Under the pieces are notes generated by a model. It was not told the DNA's origin. It did no database searches and was given only the letters and a program-made list of their open reading frames with translations. From Victivallaceae bacterium (GTDB taxonomy: Bacteria > Verrucomicrobiota > Lentisphaeria > Victivallales > Victivallaceae): a stretch of DNA of 42,172 nt. The DNA is taken from contig JAQUYX010000004.1 in assembly GCA_028691615.1 (NCBI GenBank), positions 1-42,172 of the forward strand, in the 5' to 3' direction. The translations under genes were made by a program, and so were the position numbers. This document shows, piece by piece, positions 19,699-28,369 of the stretch. Position 1 is the first letter of the stretch, and every line of letters starts with the position of its first letter.

Positions 19699-20298
19699 TC
19701 AATTCGTTTTGCGGCATCGATAGACAAAGGCAGGCGGGAAGTTCCGCCAGACAATCGGACTGGCCTGCACATCATCGAACAACTCGTTCAGCCTTCGGCG
19801 AAACCGCTGCGCTTTGGGAAGCAAAGCACTCTGAAGATAGGCAAATGTACAGAATGTCCCCTCCTCCGCCAGATTATCGTAGACCGCAGTCAAAATCGAA
19901 TCCTGCAACGCGCCCGGGAAAACCGCCCAAGGCAGCCCGCTGATGATCACATCGGCCCGTTTAAGATGATTTTCCCTCAACGCCTCCCCGATCGCCTCCG
20001 CACTCTGATTGCGGAAGTATTGCGCGCCAAACCTGCTGCACAACTGTCCGTACAGCCGCGTGTCCAGTTCAAACGCCAGAAAGTCCGTGGCGGCTTGCTT
20101 CTTCTTTAGAATTTCCGCCGTGAACACTCCCGTTCCCGGCCCCAGCTCCACAATCACCTTCGCCGACTCCAGCTTCGCCTCCGACGTGATGACCCGGCAG
20201 AGCGCCGGAGAGGATGGACAAACCGCGCCGACTTTGGTCGGATGTCGGAGAAATGCTTTCAACAATGCTCCCGTCTGCGTAGAGGTGCTTCCGGTCAT
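19699..20298 (-). CDS. SAM-dependent methyltransferase, phospholipid N-methyltransferase (PmtA)-like
   Basis: The 199-residue protein has a class I SAM-binding fold with motif I VIVELGPGTGVFTAEIL and motif II DFLAFELDTRLYG. The opening FLRHPTKVGAVCPSSPALC and the motif ADVIISGLPWAVFP resemble the PmtA/LigN-like group, which methylates the head group of phosphatidylethanolamine, and more distantly the rRNA dimethylase KsgA. Substrate is inferred. The start overlaps the stop of the PurN-like gene by one base (TAATG), with GGAGGAAGAGG in the end of that gene as ribosome site, so translation is coupled. trmB follows 19 bases on. Confidence 0.75.
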   Translation of the reverse strand: MTGSTSTQTGALLKAFLRHPTKVGAVCPSSPALCRVITSEAKLESAKVIVELGPGTGVFTAEILKKKQAATDFLAFELDTRLYGQLCSRFGAQYFRNQSAEAIGEALRENHLKRADVIISGLPWAVFPGALQDSILTAVYDNLAEEGTFCTFAYLQSALLPKAQRFRRRLNELFDDVQASPIVWRNFPPAFVYRCRKTN

Positions 20299-21170
20299 TA
20301 TGCCTCTTCCTCCATCGGATGTTCCAGTCCGCGCGGGCCGTATTCGACGGTGCGCACCTTCGAGAAACCATTGCGGGTGCGGAAGTAGAGATCGTCCGAC
20401 TCCCGTGCGTAATCCCCGGCTGCGAAATGTTCGACGGTGGCCGGAAAGACCACATGATCTCCCGCGTATTTGAGTTTCTCCAACGACGCGGCCGCCACCT
20501 GGCTGAGCAAGTCGCCGGTCAATTTGCCGGGAACCGACCGCCAATCGATTCCCGCGACAACTTCCTCCGGCGGAAAGCCGAGCCAGTCGGGTTTGACCGG
20601 CGTCGAAATCCCCAGAACCAATCCCCCGTCCACATCGTTGGCGCCCCGGCACGGCTGCGCCAGAATGACGCTGCTGCGCAGCCCCTTGTCCCCGTTCAGC
20701 AGCAAAGCGCGCTTGACCGGAAGGTGGTGCAGTCCCGCCAGAATCCGAACTCCGTCGATTTCACAGGTCAAATCGCCCGGATGGACGTTCAGACAGGGAA
20801 AATCCGCGACGATATTGCTCAACGGCACGAAGCCGGCAAGAATGCCGAAGTCCACATGGTACGGCGCAATGATTTCCCGCAACGTATCCGTCCATTGATC
20901 GCGCAACTGCCACGCCTTGTCGCTGGTGAGCGCGATCGACTTGAGGCCGTGATCCCGATAGAGTTTGCGGATGTCGCAGAGTGCGAAAGGCAGATGAAAT
21001 CGTTCGGCAATGGCTTGTGCGTTGCATTCCGCCCGGTCGCTGACAATCAGAACCGGATCCCAGTTGCGCGTGGCCGATTCCAGCAGTTTTTCCGCGTTGG
21101 TGCCGCTGCCGCTGATGAAAATGACTGCGCGCGCCGATTTGCCCGGACGCGGTTCGTACAATAATCTCAT
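20298..21170 (-). CDS. Formyltransferase-family protein, PurN-like with a C-terminal extension
   Basis: PurN transfers a formyl group from 10-formyl-tetrahydrofolate to glycinamide ribonucleotide in purine synthesis. The 290-residue product has the phosphate-loop motif FISGSGTNAEKLLE near residue 18, the folate-side motif LNVHPGDL with the catalytic Asn and His, and a later VDGGLVLG that fits the catalytic aspartate region. True PurN is near 190-215 residues. Here an extra segment of 80-90 residues follows, rich in charged residues and ending in EEEA, and a longer insert precedes the LNVHP motif. The acceptor could therefore be glycinamide ribonucleotide or another amine. ATG 21170 has a weak ribosome site (GGATTGG). 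It heads the three-gene unit ending with trmB. Confidence 0.72.
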   Translation of the reverse strand: MRLLYEPRPGKSARAVIFISGSGTNAEKLLESATRNWDPVLIVSDRAECNAQAIAERFHLPFALCDIRKLYRDHGLKSIALTSDKAWQLRDQWTDTLREIIAPYHVDFGILAGFVPLSNIVADFPCLNVHPGDLTCEIDGVRILAGLHHLPVKRALLLNGDKGLRSSVILAQPCRGANDVDGGLVLGISTPVKPDWLGFPPEEVVAGIDWRSVPGKLTGDLLSQVAAASLEKLKYAGDHVVFPATVEHFAAGDYARESDDLYFRTRNGFSKVRTVEYGPRGLEHPMEEEA

Positions 21171-21217
21171 GTCCAATCCGAACTGCTTTGTTTTTGAAAA
21201 AATGATATCAATTTTAA

Positions 21218-21247
21218 TAATATACCGCGCTTTTGGTCGTTTGTCCA
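21218..21247 (-). promoter_or_regulatory. Promoter of the PurN-like/PmtA-like/trmB operon
   Basis: On the minus strand TGGACA (21247-21242) and TATATT (21224-21219) are 17 bases apart, which fits a housekeeping promoter. The -10 is about 48 bases before the start at 21170. It lies between rpe and the PurN-like gene, so these are probably separate transcription units. Confidence 0.65.
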
Positions 21248-21276
21248 CCAAATGCCATTGTTTTTCCGCGGATTTT

Positions 21277-21960
21277 TTAGCGTAACACTTTGATTCCGTG
21301 TTCGATTCCGAGTTTATTCCGGAATACGCTGCTGCCGGCGACCAGAATATTCGCGCCCGCCTGTTTGACCACCGGCGCGGTTTTTTCGTCGATTCCACCG
21401 TCCACTTCCAGATGCACCGCCAGATTGCGCCGTTTGATTTCCTTGCGAAATTCGCTCAATTTCACGGCCTGATCGGCCAGAAAGGACTGGCCGCCGAACC
21501 CCGGTTCGACGGTCATGACCAGCACCAGATCCACTAGATCAAGCAGGTCAAAGAGTTTCTCCGCCGGAGTCGCCGGCTTGAGAGAAATTCCAACCGTGCA
21601 ACCCAGCGAACGGATCTTGGCGATTACCTCGCGCGGATCGTTGTTGGACTCCCAGTGAAATGTGATGTGGTCGGCCCCCGCCTTGGCAAAATCCTCCGCA
21701 TATTTCAGCGGATCCTCGATCATCAAATGCGCATCGAAAAGCAGATTCATATGCCGTGCGCGCAGATTCGAAATCACCACGCTCCCGAAGGAGAGATTCG
21801 GCACCAGATGCCCGTCCATCACATCCAGATGCAAGAGCTCCGCTCCCGCGCGCGCAATATCATCAACTTGCGTATCCAAGGAACCAAAATCCGCCGCCAG
21901 CAGAGAGGGGCTGATCAACAAACGCTCCGTGGAGTAATCTTTGAGATTCCTGCTTGTCAT
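21277..21960 (-). CDS. rpe: Ribulose-phosphate 3-epimerase
   Basis: Rpe interconverts ribulose-5-phosphate and xylulose-5-phosphate in the pentose phosphate pathway. The 227-residue product has the TIM-barrel signatures ISPSLLAADFGSL, LHLDVMDGHLVPNLSFG with the metal-binding His and Asp, FDAHLMIEDP, MTVEPGFGGQSFL and LEVDGGIDEKTA with the second catalytic aspartate, and ends in the phosphate-binding AGSSVFR. The start at 21960 overlaps the fmt stop as ATGA; an ATG two codons earlier is equally usable given GGAAGGG upstream. With RpiB in the fusion gene at 2938, both ribulose-5-phosphate interconverting enzymes are in this window. Confidence 0.96.
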   Translation of the reverse strand: MTSRNLKDYSTERLLISPSLLAADFGSLDTQVDDIARAGAELLHLDVMDGHLVPNLSFGSVVISNLRARHMNLLFDAHLMIEDPLKYAEDFAKAGADHITFHWESNNDPREVIAKIRSLGCTVGISLKPATPAEKLFDLLDLVDLVLVMTVEPGFGGQSFLADQAVKLSEFRKEIKRRNLAVHLEVDGGIDEKTAPVVKQAGANILVAGSSVFRNKLGIEHGIKVLR

Positions 21961-22949
21961 GTGCATTCGTTCCCTTCCGTTTCGATGACCCGGAGCATGC
22001 CGCGCTCTTCCTTGGGCCAGCCGTTGAGAAAATCTTTCACCGGCATTGGTTTTTTGCCTGCCGGGGCCACTTCCAGAAGCGCCAGAACCGCGTCGCCGCA
22101 GGCAATTCGGATTTCGCCGGGATTCGCCGATGGCAGCCGGTCGCCCGGCTTCGCGTCGGCGGGACGATCCGCGATGACCGCCGCGCGGCGGATGGTCAGC
22201 GCAATCTGCTTGCGTGCCGTCCCCAGCGTGCAGAAGGCGCCCGGCCAAGGCCGGTATGCCCGGGTCATTGCCTCAATCTGTGCGGCGCTTGCCTCCCAAT
22301 GAATCCGTCCGTCCGCCTTGTGCACCTTGGTGCATACGGTTGCTCTTTGCGCATCCTGCGGGACGGCGCAGAGCGTGCCGGAGGCGATTTGAGAAAGCAC
22401 TTCGGGCAGATGCTCCGCGGCGAGAAGTCCCAGCGCGGTTTCCAAGGTGTCCGCGTATTCGTCGCCGCGCAGTTCGCGTTCGATGGTGCGAAAGACCGGA
22501 CCGCTGTCCAGTCCTTTTGCCATTTGCATGAAAGTCACTCCGGTGACCGGATCGCGGGCGAGCAGCGCGCTGGTGATCGGAGACGCTCCCCGGTAGCGTG
22601 GCAGCAGCGAGGCGTGCACATTGATGCAGCCGAAACGGGGCAATTGCAGGATCGGAGCTTTGAGCAGCTGTCCGAAAGAGATGAGCACGATGAAATCCAG
22701 ATCCATTGCGGCGAGCCGGGCGATGAAATCGGGGTCGTTGACGCTGTGCGGTTTATCGGAAAGAATCCCCATTTTTTCAGCCGCCTGCGCCAGCGGGGTG
22801 GGGGTGATGGCGCATTTGCGTCCTGCGGGGCGGTCGGGCTGGCTGCCGACGCCGGAAAGCTCCACGAAATCGCATGCGTTTCGCAGAACGCTCAGCGACG
22901 GAACTGCGATGGCTCCTGAGCCTAAAAAATATACTTTCAGTCGTTTCAA
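21957..22949 (-). CDS. fmt: Methionyl-tRNA formyltransferase
   Basis: Fmt formylates initiator Met-tRNA with 10-formyl-tetrahydrofolate. The 330-residue product has the N-terminal formyltransferase domain with VYFLGSGAIAVPSL, the folate/catalytic block CINVHASLLPRYRGASPI containing Asn and His, and LDSGPVF with the catalytic aspartate. The C-terminal OB-like domain starts near residue 205 (IHWEASAAQIEAMTRAYRPWPGAF). I choose a TTG start at 22949, six bases after GGAG, giving MKRLKVYFLGSG; the next in-frame ATG lies about 170 bases upstream, beyond the promoter. It is followed directly by rpe. Confidence 0.95.
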   Translation of the reverse strand: MKRLKVYFLGSGAIAVPSLSVLRNACDFVELSGVGSQPDRPAGRKCAITPTPLAQAAEKMGILSDKPHSVNDPDFIARLAAMDLDFIVLISFGQLLKAPILQLPRFGCINVHASLLPRYRGASPITSALLARDPVTGVTFMQMAKGLDSGPVFRTIERELRGDEYADTLETALGLLAAEHLPEVLSQIASGTLCAVPQDAQRATVCTKVHKADGRIHWEASAAQIEAMTRAYRPWPGAFCTLGTARKQIALTIRRAAVIADRPADAKPGDRLPSANPGEIRIACGDAVLALLEVAPAGKKPMPVKDFLNGWPKEERGMLRVIETEGNECT

Positions 22950-22987
22950 GATAAGCTCCGAACTGCGATTTTCAACTTTTTGCCCGG

Positions 22988-23017
22988 TAATATAACCGTT
23001 CAATCTGTTTTTTACAA
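22988..23017 (-). promoter_or_regulatory. Promoter of the fmt-rpe operon
   Basis: On the minus strand TTGTAA (23017-23012) and TATATT (22994-22989) are 17 bases apart, ending about 39 bases before the TTG start. The -10 context GGTTATATTAC is shared with the topA promoter. Confidence 0.7.
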
Positions 23018-23138
23018 GGTTCTTCTCCGCCGGAAAAAGCAAAACCTCCGCGTGGGGGGATGGAACAGTCCCGCCGGGTGGAAATTTTAAGAAGCGTTGG
23101 CGCGTCAAGGAAAAACCCATTTCTTTCCGTCAAAGTTC

Positions 23139-23167
23139 TTGAAATTTTGGGAAACGGAGGCTATTAT
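23139..23167 (+). promoter_or_regulatory. Promoter of the membrane-kinase operon
   Basis: TTGAAA (23139-23144) and TATTAT (23162-23167) are 17 bases apart, and the -10 lies about 54 bases before the start at 23222. It faces away from the fmt promoter, so the 22950-23221 gap is a divergent promoter region with no gene of its own. Confidence 0.65.
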
Positions 23168-23221
23168 ATGGAATGTTTGCCATATTGTCAAGGTCGTTTT
23201 CTTAATCAGGAGTGGTCAAAG

Positions 23222-23761
23222 ATGAAATCTGCCGCCTTCGTCAAAGTCTTTCTGCCGGCGCTCATTGCCTTCGCCGCCGCCGTGTTTGTATTGAACTACT
23301 ATTATGACAACAACGAATTTTTCCGCAATATCTTTGCGCAGCAGCCCGCCGCGTCCATGGAGGTCGGGTCCGCCGCCGCCGCGGTCGCCGCAGCCCAACA
23401 GCAGAGCGATATGCTCGTGCTCTCCGGGAGAATTTCCATGTTTTCCTGCGCATTCATCACATTCCTTCAGATTCTCGCCTTTCTCGCCGCGGCGTATGTG
23501 CGGCACGGGATTCTCAAGGACAGCTGCTCTCCGGCGGCCAAACTTAAAAAACTGGAAAACGCCGACATCTTCTTCGATCTGCCGCTTTATCTGGGGCTGT
23601 TCGGCTCGGTCACGGCGTTTCTGCTGATTAATTTCTGCCCGCAAAGCAGCAAGATCATCGCGTATTCTTCGACGATGATCGGAATTATTTTCAGCGTGGT
23701 TCTGCGTCTTGCCCTGCTCTATCCGGCGCGGCGCAACCTGCTTCAGGCCAAGGGGGAATAA
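23222..23761 (+). CDS. Four-helix membrane protein with a TolQ/ExbB/MotA-like core
   Basis: The 179-residue protein has about four membrane helices: residues 6-26, 68-92, 118-138 and 143-165. The last two resemble the pore helices of TolQ/ExbB/MotA proteins: PLYLGLFGSVTAFLLI parallels the family's P-x-x-GLLGTV-x-G helix, and AYSSTMIGIIFSVVLRLAL parallels the A-L-x-x-T-x-x-G-L-x-x-A-I-P helix. The large cytoplasmic loop of MotA is missing. An Ala/Gln-rich linker (44-64) lies between helices one and two. Family members form proton or sodium channels that power mechanical work. The similarity is read by eye and is weak, so function is a hypothesis. GGAG precedes ATG 23222, and the coiled-coil gene starts 3 bases after the stop. 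Confidence 0.7.
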   Translation: MKSAAFVKVFLPALIAFAAAVFVLNYYYDNNEFFRNIFAQQPAASMEVGSAAAAVAAAQQQSDMLVLSGRISMFSCAFITFLQILAFLAAAYVRHGILKDSCSPAAKLKKLENADIFFDLPLYLGLFGSVTAFLLINFCPQSSKIIAYSSTMIGIIFSVVLRLALLYPARRNLLQAKGE

Positions 23762-23764
23762 CAA

Positions 23765-25315
23765 GTGAACCGCTCGATTCTGGTTGTCATCTGCGACTTC
23801 CTGATCCTGTCGATGTTCGCGTTGAACACCGTCGGGCCGTCGCAGCAGGAGGGCGGTTCGCCCCTGCCGGTCATCGTCGGCAAGGTCGAGGCGAAAAAAA
23901 CCGAGGCAACTTCCCCCGAAAAGGCGCTGGCGGAAATCGCCGGTGAACGCGACGCGCTCGCCAATGCGTTGCGCAGAACCGTCGATGAGCTGAAACTCGA
24001 ACGGGAACGGCTGCGCACCATGCAGACCGAGACGGTCGAGCTGGAAAAACGCAATCTGCGCACCGGACGGACTTTGGAAAGCACCCGGCGGGAACTGGCC
24101 GAAAGCCGCGGCAAACTTTCGGTGATGAACGAACGCCTCTCCGAATACCGGGTTTCCCTTTCCACGCAGGAACGGGAGCTGATCACCGCGCTGGAGAAGC
24201 TCGAACGCTCCATCGGGGAACTCAAACAGTCCAATCTTCAATCCGACGAATACCGCAAAAAACTCGGCGAATACGAAGTGAATATCTCTTACACTTCCGG
24301 GAAACTGTCCACCATTGAGCGGGAACTGGCCGAAACCAAGGGCCGTCTCTCCGTGACCGCCCGCAACCTCGGCAGCCGCGAGGTCGAACTGGGCGAGAGC
24401 CGGCGGCAGGTCGACCATCTGCGCGGCATGCTCTCCTCCACCGTCGCGGATCTCGGCGCCGAACGGCGCACCGGAATTGAAAAACAGCAGAAGCTTTATG
24501 AACTGCAGAAACTTCTGGCGGAGGCCGCCAACCGTCCTTCCGACAGTGTTCGGCGCGATGTCTTTTCCAGTTACGCGCAGGCGGTCGGAAAATTCTCCGT
24601 GGTTATGCGCGAGGATCGGCTTTTCTCCGACTTCGTTGGCGGCGGGGACTATTACCTGCCGGTGCTGGAGCTCAACAAACGGCGCATCTTGATTTTCGAC
24701 TTCGGCAAGCTTACCGGCAATCCCCCGGGACGAACCAACTTCAATCGCGTCAGTGAACTCGGGTATTCCTTCGCAAAGGCCGGCGCCGCCGGGAAGGGCA
24801 AGTCGGTTCAAGGTCCCATGGGGTATTGGAAGAAATCCCCCGCGATTGGCGTATTTGAACTCGGAGAGCATGCCAACGGATTTACCGCGCTCAAGATTTT
24901 GACGGCGGAGGAGCTGAAAAAACGCGGCACCGAGGATCTGTATCTTTTCAAAGCCGGAAGCGCCGGACGCGACAGCGTCAATCTGGCGGGACGTTGCTCG
25001 TTGGATCTCGCCAGCGAATATCAGTCGCTTTGCCTTCGGAACGCCGGAAGATCCGTGGTCTCCGAGCTGCGCGCCGAACCGGGAGATTTCGTGCTCACCG
25101 GAGATGGGAAATTTGCAGCATTGGTTACGCATATTGAATCTTTCGATCAGGGACGCAGACAGGAAGCGCGGTGTTTTGTGTTTCCGAAAGATTTCCGGTT
25201 CGAGGATGTGAAGAACGTGGACATCTCCTCGAAAAATTCCGACGGCCTCTATCAAGTCTTTGCAAAGGACGCAAGCGAGGCACTCCGGCAGGCGGGCGAA
25301 GAATCCAGAAACTGA
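23765..25315 (+). CDS. Membrane-anchored long coiled-coil protein with an aspartate in its single membrane helix
   Basis: The 516-residue product starts at GTG 23765, seven bases after AAGGGGGA. Residues 4-22 are one membrane helix with Asp11 near its start (RSILVVICDFLILSMFAL), an arrangement like the channel-lining aspartate of MotB and ExbD. From about 50 to 260 a very charged coiled coil follows, with tandem E-R-E-L-A-E-x-x-G-x-L-S phrases. The last 250 residues are a globular domain I do not recognise (FVGGGDYYLPVLELNKRRIL near 290, then mixed beta strands). It is not the OmpA-like peptidoglycan-binding domain of MotB. It lies between the TolQ-like gene and the kinase gene in one operon. 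Confidence 0.75.
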   Translation: MNRSILVVICDFLILSMFALNTVGPSQQEGGSPLPVIVGKVEAKKTEATSPEKALAEIAGERDALANALRRTVDELKLERERLRTMQTETVELEKRNLRTGRTLESTRRELAESRGKLSVMNERLSEYRVSLSTQERELITALEKLERSIGELKQSNLQSDEYRKKLGEYEVNISYTSGKLSTIERELAETKGRLSVTARNLGSREVELGESRRQVDHLRGMLSSTVADLGAERRTGIEKQQKLYELQKLLAEAANRPSDSVRRDVFSSYAQAVGKFSVVMREDRLFSDFVGGGDYYLPVLELNKRRILIFDFGKLTGNPPGRTNFNRVSELGYSFAKAGAAGKGKSVQGPMGYWKKSPAIGVFELGEHANGFTALKILTAEELKKRGTEDLYLFKAGSAGRDSVNLAGRCSLDLASEYQSLCLRNAGRSVVSELRAEPGDFVLTGDGKFAALVTHIESFDQGRRQEARCFVFPKDFRFEDVKNVDISSKNSDGLYQVFAKDASEALRQAGEESRN

Positions 25316-25370
25316 TCCGGTCTTCCCCTGGCCCGGAAGCATTCCGGCAGGAGAGCGGTCAAGGAGCATT

Positions 25371-27755
25371 ATGGGCGAGTGCGAAAAGACAATCTGTCTC
25401 GATCGCGAAGGCGACGGCGCGCGCATTACGTCCGCGGAATTTAAGGCGATGCTGGATGTCCCCGAGATCGTCCGTCTCGGGGATTTCCGGGATGTGCGTC
25501 TCTTAGGCAAGGGCGGCGTGGGCGAAGTTTATTCGGTGCGCGACAACACCCTTTTGCGCAATGTCGCGCTCAAAACGCTTCGCCCGGAACAGCGATACCG
25601 CCGCAAGGCCGTCAACGATCTTATTCGTGAGGCGCGCACGACCGCGCAGATCGATCACCCCAACGTCGTGCCGGTTTACAATATCGGCGTGCTCGATGAT
25701 TACGGGGTCTATTTCACCATGAAAAACCTCTCCGGCGGGGAGACGCTCCAGGAGGTGATTACCCGGCTTCGCACGCATGTGCCCGGCTATGACAAGCGCT
25801 ATTCATTGCGGCGGCGCATGGAAATTTTCGTCTCCATCTGCAATACCATGGCCTTTGCGCACAGCCGTGGCGTCCTGCATCGCGACCTCAAACCCGGCAA
25901 TATCATGCTCGGCGAGTACGGCGAGATCATGATTATGGACTGGGGAATGGCGCTTTACCGCAAAGAGATCGCCCGCGACGGCCACGCAATTCTTCTGGAA
26001 GGAGAGGGGCAGGCTCAGGCAGAACAGGTTCTGCACAAGGAGGGCGGTTCGGATTTTTCGGTGGGGGGAACTCCCGCATTCATGTCGCCCGAACAGGTGC
26101 GTGGATACCTCAGCGAGCTCGATGAGGCCGCTGATCAATACAGTCTGGGCGCAATTCTTCACTGTCTCCTGACCTTGCAAAATTCGCCCTTCGAAGAGAA
26201 TTTGGAGACAAAGGCGCTGCTGGGGCGCGTGCTGGCCGGAGCGATTGTGCCGCCGCGAAAACGCGCCCCGCGGCTCAAAATTCCCCGGGAATTGGAGGCG
26301 ATCTGCACCAAAGCGATGAAAACTGACAAACGTCAGCGTTATGAATCCGTGCTGGCGCTGGCCACGGACGTGCGCAACTATCTGGACTTCTACCCGGTAA
26401 GCGCGTATACCAGCAAGATCGGTCGGCTTGCCAAACTTTGTCGCCGTCGCCCGCTGATTCCTGCGACGCTGCTGGGCGCGGGGTTCGCGCTGTTGGTTAC
26501 TTATGCGGGAATTGGTGCGCAGAAATATTTGGAACAGCGGGATTTTCAGCGCCAGATCGACAGCCGTTACGAGGAGTTGATGCGCAAGACGGCCATGGCC
26601 AAACACGAGTATTTCAACAGCAAGAACGATGCCCGGCTGCCTTCCGAGGCGTTTCTGCTGGCTCAGAGTGAAGCGCAGATGATTGCCAGTGTGATCTTGC
26701 ACGACATCGAAGGGGCCAAAACCTATTCGAATTATTCGTCCGCGTCGCGGAATTTTGCGGAAAAAACGATTGAACACATGCTCAATTACTATCTGGCAAC
26801 CGAAAACAGCGAACAGCTCGGCCAATTCTTCCGGGAGATGCGTTCCCGCTGGCAGGGAGAGCTTCTTTCGGTGTTGGGCAGGGATGCAAAGCTCTCCCGC
26901 AGTTACGCGCTGCAGAATCGCAACGAGGCAATGGTTCGCATTGAATGCAATCGCCCCAGCCGGGTGACGGTGGTCAAACGACTTTTTCCGCCGGTAAAAG
27001 TCACCCCGGGGGAGAAAATTCGGGAACTGCCTGACGAGGCGGCGCCGTTTCATGGGACTTTGCCGGCCGGAGAGTATCTCTTCCGGATTTCCGGCCGATT
27101 CGGGGCGTTTTCGCTGATTCTCAAAATGCCGCCATCGTCGCAGCGCACCATTCGGCTGGAACTGCCGGAGAAGGTGCCTGACGATAGCATTTTCGTGGCG
27201 GATTGTGAAAATTCCGGGAATGCGCTGTCGTATGGATTCCTCGCCGGGCGCGAGGTGGTTTCGCTGGGGGAATATCTGGAATTTTGGAAAACGCTTACCG
27301 ATCCGCAGGCGCGCAGCCGCTGCATGGCCCGAACGATTTTCGATCCGGCCACCGGTAAAATCGAACCGCTGTGGGATGCGCAGGGAAATTTGCGCGGACG
27401 CTTTCGGCCGGACGATCCGGTCACCGGGATCAGCGGCGTCGCCGCCCGGGAATATTGTCGTTACCTCTCAGAAAAGCATGGCGTTACCTACCGTTTGCCG
27501 ACGCCGCAGGAGTGGATTTTTGTGCTCAAGGCGTTGCGCTCGGATCAGCTTGATTTCCAAACGCGTCGCGGGGGCGATTTGCGGGAATTCACGGCAAACG
27601 GGGCGCGTTCGTCGCGATTTCAGGTGATGTCGGAGCGGGATTTGACCCCTTCCGCCGCCGAGCTTCCCCGGTATGATGGCGGATTCCCCGCACCCGATCT
27701 TGGTTTCCGCTGGGTGATCGATCCGGACGCGGGCAAGGAAGAGGCGAAGCGATGA
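25371..27755 (+). CDS. Transmembrane serine/threonine protein kinase with a degenerate FGE/SUMF1-like C-terminal domain
   Basis: From ATG 25371 (AAGGAG upstream) the product has 794 residues. Residues about 40-335 are a eukaryotic-type kinase: glycine loop GKGGVGEVY at 46-54, the ATP lysine Lys68, catalytic HRDLKPGN (170-177), DWG at 190-192 in place of DFG, common in this group, and GTPAFMSPEQ for the activation segment. A membrane helix lies at 361-383. A periplasmic helical region follows, then a PEGA-like beta domain (about 560-650, GTLPAGEYLFRISGRFG). Last is a formylglycine-generating-enzyme-like domain (about 660-785, REYCRYLSEKHGVTYRLPTPQEW ending GFRWV) without the catalytic cysteine pair in evidence, so probably a binding domain. 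Chlamydial Pkn1 has a related kinase-plus-FGE layout. Its substrates may be operon partners. Confidence 0.9.
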   Translation: MGECEKTICLDREGDGARITSAEFKAMLDVPEIVRLGDFRDVRLLGKGGVGEVYSVRDNTLLRNVALKTLRPEQRYRRKAVNDLIREARTTAQIDHPNVVPVYNIGVLDDYGVYFTMKNLSGGETLQEVITRLRTHVPGYDKRYSLRRRMEIFVSICNTMAFAHSRGVLHRDLKPGNIMLGEYGEIMIMDWGMALYRKEIARDGHAILLEGEGQAQAEQVLHKEGGSDFSVGGTPAFMSPEQVRGYLSELDEAADQYSLGAILHCLLTLQNSPFEENLETKALLGRVLAGAIVPPRKRAPRLKIPRELEAICTKAMKTDKRQRYESVLALATDVRNYLDFYPVSAYTSKIGRLAKLCRRRPLIPATLLGAGFALLVTYAGIGAQKYLEQRDFQRQIDSRYEELMRKTAMAKHEYFNSKNDARLPSEAFLLAQSEAQMIASVILHDIEGAKTYSNYSSASRNFAEKTIEHMLNYYLATENSEQLGQFFREMRSRWQGELLSVLGRDAKLSRSYALQNRNEAMVRIECNRPSRVTVVKRLFPPVKVTPGEKIRELPDEAAPFHGTLPAGEYLFRISGRFGAFSLILKMPPSSQRTIRLELPEKVPDDSIFVADCENSGNALSYGFLAGREVVSLGEYLEFWKTLTDPQARSRCMARTIFDPATGKIEPLWDAQGNLRGRFRPDDPVTGISGVAAREYCRYLSEKHGVTYRLPTPQEWIFVLKALRSDQLDFQTRRGGDLREFTANGARSSRFQVMSERDLTPSAAELPRYDGGFPAPDLGFRWVIDPDAGKEEAKR

Positions 27756-28369
27756 CAAATCCTTCTTTTCGCGCTCCCGCCGGCGGACGAAGCCGGGCAG
27801 GGCGTGTGGCGGCGTCCGGGCACGCTCCCCAAAAACTCCGCTGGGCATGGATTGCCGCCGGAATCGCAATGAGCTGTGGGCTGTTTTTCCTGTTGCGCGC
27901 CAGGACGCAGATGCAGGCGCCTTCGCTCCCCCCGGAAGAGGAGGCCATGCAAAATTTCAAGCGGGCGATCGCAGAGGACTCGCAGATGCTCGGAAAACTC
28001 TATCATTTGCAGCGCAGTCTTGCCGCGAGCCGCAAAATTCCGCAGGAGCAGCGGCGGCAAATGCTGATTCGCGCCGCGAGTTCGGCCGTATGCTCGGTGA
28101 TGGAGGATTTTTCCCGGCTGCCGGAGAAGGATAAGGACAAGCGGGCGTCGGTTTTGCAGGCGGACGCCGACTCCATGCATCGCGCGTTTCGCGCATTGCC
28201 GCCGGAAAAACGCAAAAAGGCGCTCGAACTCTTGCAAAACGATCCCGAGGCGAAGGCGAATTTCGACCGCGCGATTCGGCTCTCGGCCAATCGTCTTTCG
28301 CCCGCCGACCGGGGCAGACTCGGGCCGACCATTGCGCTTTGGCAGAAAATATTGGAAGATAAACCGTGA
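27752..28369 (+). CDS. Single-pass membrane protein of unknown function, coupled to the kinase gene
   Basis: The 205-residue product overlaps the kinase stop as ATGA. A basic, disordered 28-residue cytoplasmic start is followed by one membrane helix (residues 31-48, WAWIAAGIAMSCGLFFLL). The periplasmic part is all-helical and charged, with repeated E-x-x-R-R-x-x-L motifs (IPQEQRRQMLIRAASSA; LPPEKRKKALELLQNDP). The R-x-L-P-P-E-x-R phrase resembles helical repeats in DUF3106-like proteins of related bacteria. The arginine- and serine-rich start could be a kinase target, which is inference. No enzyme motif is visible. It is the last gene of the operon. Confidence 0.75.
   Translation: MTNPSFRAPAGGRSRAGRVAASGHAPQKLRWAWIAAGIAMSCGLFFLLRARTQMQAPSLPPEEEAMQNFKRAIAEDSQMLGKLYHLQRSLAASRKIPQEQRRQMLIRAASSAVCSVMEDFSRLPEKDKDKRASVLQADADSMHRAFRALPPEKRKKALELLQNDPEAKANFDRAIRLSANRLSPADRGRLGPTIALWQKILEDKP

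Follow-up and report, generated by a model that had tools for sequence, protein, structure and literature searches.

We analyzed a stretch of 42,172 nucleotides (the window; contig JAQUYX010000004.1 of assembly GCA_028691615.1) from the 3.1-Mb draft genome of a Victivallaceae bacterium, whose relatives are Victivallaceae and other Lentisphaeria. The subject of this work is a gene pair in the window, P1-P2, encoding a four-helix membrane protein and a long protein anchored by a single helix, together with the two genes that follow it. As seen below, all four genes lie on the plus strand, with gaps of 3 and 55 bases and then a 4-base overlap, exactly where a first-pass annotation, made from the nucleotide sequence alone, had placed them.

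23222..23761, plus strand: P1, 179 amino acids, four-helix membrane protein, putative ring (A) subunit
23765..25315, plus strand: P2, 516 amino acids, GTG start; N-terminal membrane helix, coiled coil and predicted HtrA-like pseudoprotease; putative central (B) subunit
25371..27755, plus strand: P3, 794 amino acids, membrane Ser/Thr kinase with an FGE-sulfatase-like stretch in its probable extracytoplasmic C-terminal part
27752..28369, plus strand: P4, 205 amino acids, small single-pass protein overlapping P3, judged to lie outside the conserved system

When Pfam, NCBIfam and PADLOC were run on the four proteins, only the kinase and the FGE-like stretch were recognised, the remaining matches being coiled-coil noise. 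Profiles of P1 and of the P2 head were searched in 388 genomes of the source's phylum. P1 was found in 125 genomes and the P2 head in 127, with 124 in common. The sole genome with P1 only (G119) has its P2 cut off at a contig end (L274), and those with P2 only are G012 (contig end), G389 and G139, the last by a marginal match. The two genes adjoin nearly everywhere, being apart in G355 and G349, and a search of 61 genomes (the source genome and 60 relatives) detected P1 in 37 of them and P2 in 42, usually as neighbors. Over 66 loci, pairwise identities among P1 sequences tracked those among P2 heads (matrix correlation r = 0.91; none of 1000 permutations exceeded 0.13), which is what joint vertical inheritance would produce. 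Carriers include Victivallis vadensis DSM 14823 (L164); among 80 loci retained from a contig scan, the named records all belonged to Lentisphaerota groups and the others to uncultured bacteria. The conserved core consists of two genes, P1 and P2, and is narrower than the four-gene system proposed in the first-pass annotation: the co-occurrence of P1 with P2 held, the kinase accompanies them only in Victivallaceae and some of their kin, and P4 falls away. Many of the phylum's other families carry the P1 domain as the C-terminal portion of a larger protein, about 550 to 600 amino acids long. The N-terminal region of about 380 residues that precedes it (L239-L240, L246, L248-L271 and L276) had no family match in the examples scanned.

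The P2 protein can be divided into three parts, which are listed with the codon of its most conserved residue.

23777..23830, plus strand: membrane helix, about residues 5 to 22
23795-23797, plus strand: codon GAC of Asp11
23897..24514, plus strand: coiled-coil region, about residues 45 to 250, with 3.5-residue periodicity
24530..25312, plus strand: head with a predicted trypsin/HtrA-like fold, residues 256 to 516, carrying G440-D441-F442 where HtrA has GNS

Asp11 sits in the single N-terminal hydrophobic stretch, right behind a short basic N-terminus, and all 74 P2 homologues have an Asp at exactly position 11 counted from the start codon, so that the residue singled out in the first-pass annotation proved invariant. 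The N-terminus was also considered as a signal peptide, which we judged unlikely because nothing would then hold an Asp fixed at position 11 within the hydrophobic stretch. Behind this helix, residues 51 to 250 show a hydrophobic period of 3.5 residues with a power of 11.3 (99% of shuffles gave less than 7.0), and the best profile matches of the region are SMC coiled coils. This is consistent with a probable coiled-coil stalk, as had been anticipated; by arithmetic, 200 helical residues would extend about 30 nm.

The globular end of P2, which had been called unfamiliar, can now be given a predicted fold. The AlphaFold2 (AF2) model of the head has a mean predicted local distance difference test (pLDDT) score of 93 and a predicted template modelling (pTM) score of 0.91. 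Foldseek matched it to DegP, DegS, DegQ and HtrA1, the best E-value being 2.4e-6 (DegP, probability 1.00), with 60 matches at E of 0.001 or less. At the site of the HtrA GNS motif, nearly every sequence of the P2 family has Gly-Asp followed by a bulky hydrophobic residue; no Ser was among the residues listed at position 442 for 69 P2 sequences, with the motif aligned by eye, and the Asp and His positions are likewise not kept as a triad. On the evidence of the model, the P2 head has an HtrA/DegS-like trypsin fold that lacks the catalytic Ser, and judging from these residues, Ser-dependent protease activity is unlikely. It differs from HtrA proteases also in its low identity (approximately 10 to 13%), in showing no PDZ domain and in being mounted on a stator-like helix and a coiled coil. 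Neither an OmpA-like nor an ExbD/TolR periplasmic domain was matched in P2 by Pfam, the predicted HtrA-like fold standing in its place.

P1 was predicted to be all helical (AF2 pLDDT 93, pTM 0.84). Its model has the four helices described before, and the two segments quoted in the first-pass annotation as resembling pore helices lie in the last two of them.

23579..23722, plus strand: last two membrane helices of P1, residues 120-135 and 140-167, with conserved FDxPLYxGLFGTV and AYSSTxxGI
23606-23608, plus strand: residue 129, Thr in 58 and Ser in 12 of 70 sequences
23672-23674, plus strand: residue 151, Thr in 57 and Asn in 13 of 70 sequences

Conservation peaks in this helix pair, where L122, Y123, G125, A147, Y148 and G154 are invariant in the same 70 sequences, as is Q83 in helix 2. 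Escherichia coli TolQ carries SPYIGLFGTV and IATAIG, and PLYxGLFGTV and STxxG of P1 fall in register with these. In this motif-based register, which is the best supported, residue 129 of P1 matches TolQ T145 and residue 151 matches T178. In the TolQRA complex, T145 and T178 form a polar ring facing D23 of TolR; all three residues are indispensable and border the path proposed for protons (PMC12583513). Given that register, every one of the 70 P1 sequences has Thr or Ser at the first ring position and Thr or Asn at the second. A low-stringency full alignment also places AYSSTxxG of P1 on ATTxxG of the next helix in ExbB-type proteins.

A Foldseek search of the P1 model against 350,542 PDB chains returned TolQ as its three best matches, with insignificant E-values. 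TolQ, PomA and MotA occupied ranks 1, 2, 3, 7, 10, 18, 19, 21, 27, 36 and 44, that is, 11 of the first 50 rows, from a superfamily that sums to only about 218 PDB chains, which represents a large enrichment. Rows from one protein are not independent, and generic helical bundles also rank high, so we take the search of the predicted structure as support, not proof, for a TolQ-like relation. Separately, a PDB sequence search with the P1 and P2-head profiles yielded only designed helical proteins and one Hfq, which were judged spurious.

Several observations weigh against placing P1 with these proteins. P1 had no Pfam or NCBIfam match to MotA_ExbB, and PF01618 failed to pick it up in 41 genomes; this family was also absent from the 25 commonest families for 70 P1 members at E-values up to 10. 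Comparison of P1 with ExbB-type proteins from the same genomes by hhalign set YxGLFGTV on LLGLFGTV, with an E-value of 0.004 to 0.006 for one pair and a probability of 6 to 9%, and the real P1 score (24.9) compares with column-shuffled profiles that exceeded 25.1 in 3 of 450 cases. In the structural search, all E-values were 0.65 or higher and the TM-scores to TolQ, PomA and MotA did not exceed 0.30, giving no good superposition; this signal and that of hhalign are moreover not independent, because both use sequence. The Asn found at residue 151 in 13 of the 70 sequences departs from the Thr of TolQ, and only about 25 residues separate helices 2 and 3 of P1, whereas the cytoplasmic part of MotA and ExbB at this place is large. 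Because P1 failed the profile test of the MotA/TolQ/ExbB family, it should not be filed as a member. By analogy, the pair may still work as these proteins do, as GldLM does. GldLM provides a precedent, being a 5:2 motor with no obvious sequence homology to MotAB (PMC9389320).

The P1-P2 pair can be compared with known systems on these grounds. Like TolQ-TolR and ExbB-ExbD, it combines a multihelix subunit, bearing GLFGTV and TxxG helices with Thr/Ser and Thr/Asn at the polar-ring positions, with a single-helix subunit bearing a membrane Asp. However, P1 differs from TolQ in having a tighter hairpin, with 22 residues between the ring positions instead of 33, and from TolQ and ExbB in the missing profile match, the very small cytoplasmic loop and the conserved basic residue 162; in P2, a coiled coil and a pseudo-HtrA head replace the TolR/ExbD fold. 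GldL-GldM is likewise a stator-like pair whose relation to MotAB is difficult to see from sequence, and it has a long periplasmic shaft (PMC9389320), but the shaft of GldM is built of four domains and acts in gliding and type IX secretion, whereas P2 has a coiled coil and a trypsin-like head.

Considering these features, we lean, with somewhat more confidence than doubt, toward the view that P1 and P2 form a divergent, stator-like complex of the inner membrane that is ion driven (5:2 type) and carries a binding head. P1 would make a ring, by analogy a pentamer, and the N-terminal helices of a P2 dimer would sit inside it, with Asp11 level with the polar ring of residues 129 and 151. From the charge pattern, with positive charges at the P2 N-terminus and in the P1 loops, we infer that P1 has both ends inside and that P2 has its N-terminus inside and its C-terminus outside. 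Ion flow past Asp11, probably of protons, would turn or shift P2, and its periplasmic coiled coil would carry this motion to the HtrA-like head. The head, predicted to bind without being able to cleave, would grip a target in the envelope, for instance the wall or a protein of the outer membrane. The membrane kinase encoded in this operon in Victivallaceae probably senses the state of the periplasm or tunes the complex by phosphorylating it.

HtrA-like heads are known as periplasmic sensors and chaperones, as in DegS and DegP. Residue 162 in the last helix of P1 is Arg or Lys in 69 of the 70 sequences, which suggests a second explanation. The pair could be a sensor of the envelope with no ion flow, in which Asp11 of P2 and the basic residue 162 join the two proteins by a buried salt bridge. 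Its pseudo-HtrA head would then detect outer-membrane or unfolded proteins in the manner of DegS, and its state would be relayed inward, with the kinase as the relay wherever the pair has one. The matches of the head to DegS and DegP and the kinase adjoining the pair in Victivallaceae agree with such a sensor. Nevertheless, residue 162 lies 11 positions closer to the cytoplasm than residue 151 and so probably sits at the surface of the membrane, where basic residues are commonplace, and TolQ shows none at the equivalent site in this register. A sensor would also leave the GLFGT and TxxG signature and the Thr/Ser and Thr/Asn pair unexplained, and outside Victivallales the carriers have no kinase beside the pair. 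We regard the sensor as rather unlikely and prefer the ion-driven motor because it accounts at once for the Asp, both ring positions and the motifs.

The third gene encodes a Ser/Thr kinase (Pkinase match, E = 5e-33) with one membrane helix and the C-terminal FGE-sulfatase-like stretch, so that the transmembrane kinase read earlier at this place was recovered. Lys68, Asp172, Asn177 and Asp190 are invariant in 31 of 31 sequences, with DWG replacing DFG, and this conservation of the catalytic residues suggests that P3 is probably active. Kinases with an FGE/NirV-like C-terminal domain have been reported in Chlamydiae (PMC1262709); P3 shares with them the N-terminal Ser/Thr kinase and C-terminal FGE-like stretch, but has a membrane helix between the two parts and lies in the P1-P2 operon. 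P3 adjoins P2 in nearly all Victivallaceae sampled, and at 30 of the other Victivallales loci read, as well as at L272, P2 has a P3 homologue next downstream in the same orientation. It was not found beside the pair in five further genomes of the same order (G053, G058, G027, G037 and G012), at L273 or at any locus read in other orders (30-odd verrucomicrobial loci), and some Victivallales genomes without P1-P2 (for example, G042, G049, G052 and G057) encode kinases whose C-terminal part is related. This patchy linkage, with related kinases in genomes without the pair, indicates a frequent, lineage-specific partner and not a core component. The same two observations favor the view that P1 and P2 work alone and that the kinase is a mere neighbor, or is co-transcribed with no functional link. 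On the other side, the tight same-strand order P1-P2-P3 is maintained over many genera of the family, and we consider an unconnected kinase a real possibility, although one we would not bet on.

P4 has no relative at other P1-P2 loci, and its few homologues, found in 14 genomes, are unlinked. P4 is not part of the system, and its suggested role as partner or substrate was dropped. The first-pass annotation had also pointed to Zorya defence systems, which likewise have a stator-like 5:2 pair (PMC11890865). P3 is matched by PADLOC kinase profiles, which would hit any kinase of this sort, but no PADLOC Zorya profile matched. P1 and P2 are co-inherited vertically among housekeeping neighbors, and no relatives were found on viral contigs or plasmids, so that a defence or mobile origin was rejected and an anti-phage system of the Zorya type appears highly improbable.

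The surroundings of the pair were also inspected. The single promoter described before P1 is present in the sequence:

23139..23167, plus strand: promoter-like site TTGAAA-17-TATTAT, 10 of 12 matches

A scan of the region gave 5 such sites where 1.8 +/- 1.5 were expected, so the site proves little and is no evidence of function. On the minus strand, a perfect sigma-70 consensus (TTGACA-17-TATAAT, 23163-23191) overlaps this region and faces a gene (21957-23120) that reads like methionyl-tRNA formyltransferase; near it, 20298-21398 (minus strand) encodes a protein that resembles a PurN-like formyltransferase (SGSGTNAEKLL..., NVHPGDL). At 16 loci of the phylum's other families (L248-L250 and L259-L271), the divergent gene upstream of P1-P2 is peptide deformylase-like; in the window, this neighbor is the gene that reads like methionyl-tRNA formyltransferase. 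These divergent neighbors may possibly reflect an old link to a def-fmt region, or chance. Downstream, the kinase is often succeeded by a gene for an ABC-F-like ATPase (protein start MIDF...; L065, L067, L068, L070-L072, L074, L076, L077 and L082-L085), which in L099 comes directly after P2.

The open-access literature searched gave no description of the P1-P2 pair, and the passages inspected of a survey of MotAB homologues and of a review of 5:2 motors make no mention of such a pair. P1-P2 looks like an undescribed motor or force-sensing device. More tentatively, and a little short of an even chance in our estimation, it would represent an unrecognised class of 5:2 ion-driven motor across one phylum, with a coiled-coil stalk and a periplasmic pseudoprotease head, and controlled by a kinase in Victivallaceae. 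Three conserved positions (Asp11 of P2 and residues 129 and 151 of P1) give sharp and directly testable predictions. Motors of the 5:2 type are known to power flagella, gliding and secretion, phage defence, and uptake and constriction at the outer membrane. If true, another class of them, with a noncleaving HtrA-like head, would widen the range of what such engines act on, and the neighboring kinase would provide a rare example of a motor of this kind coupled to signalling.

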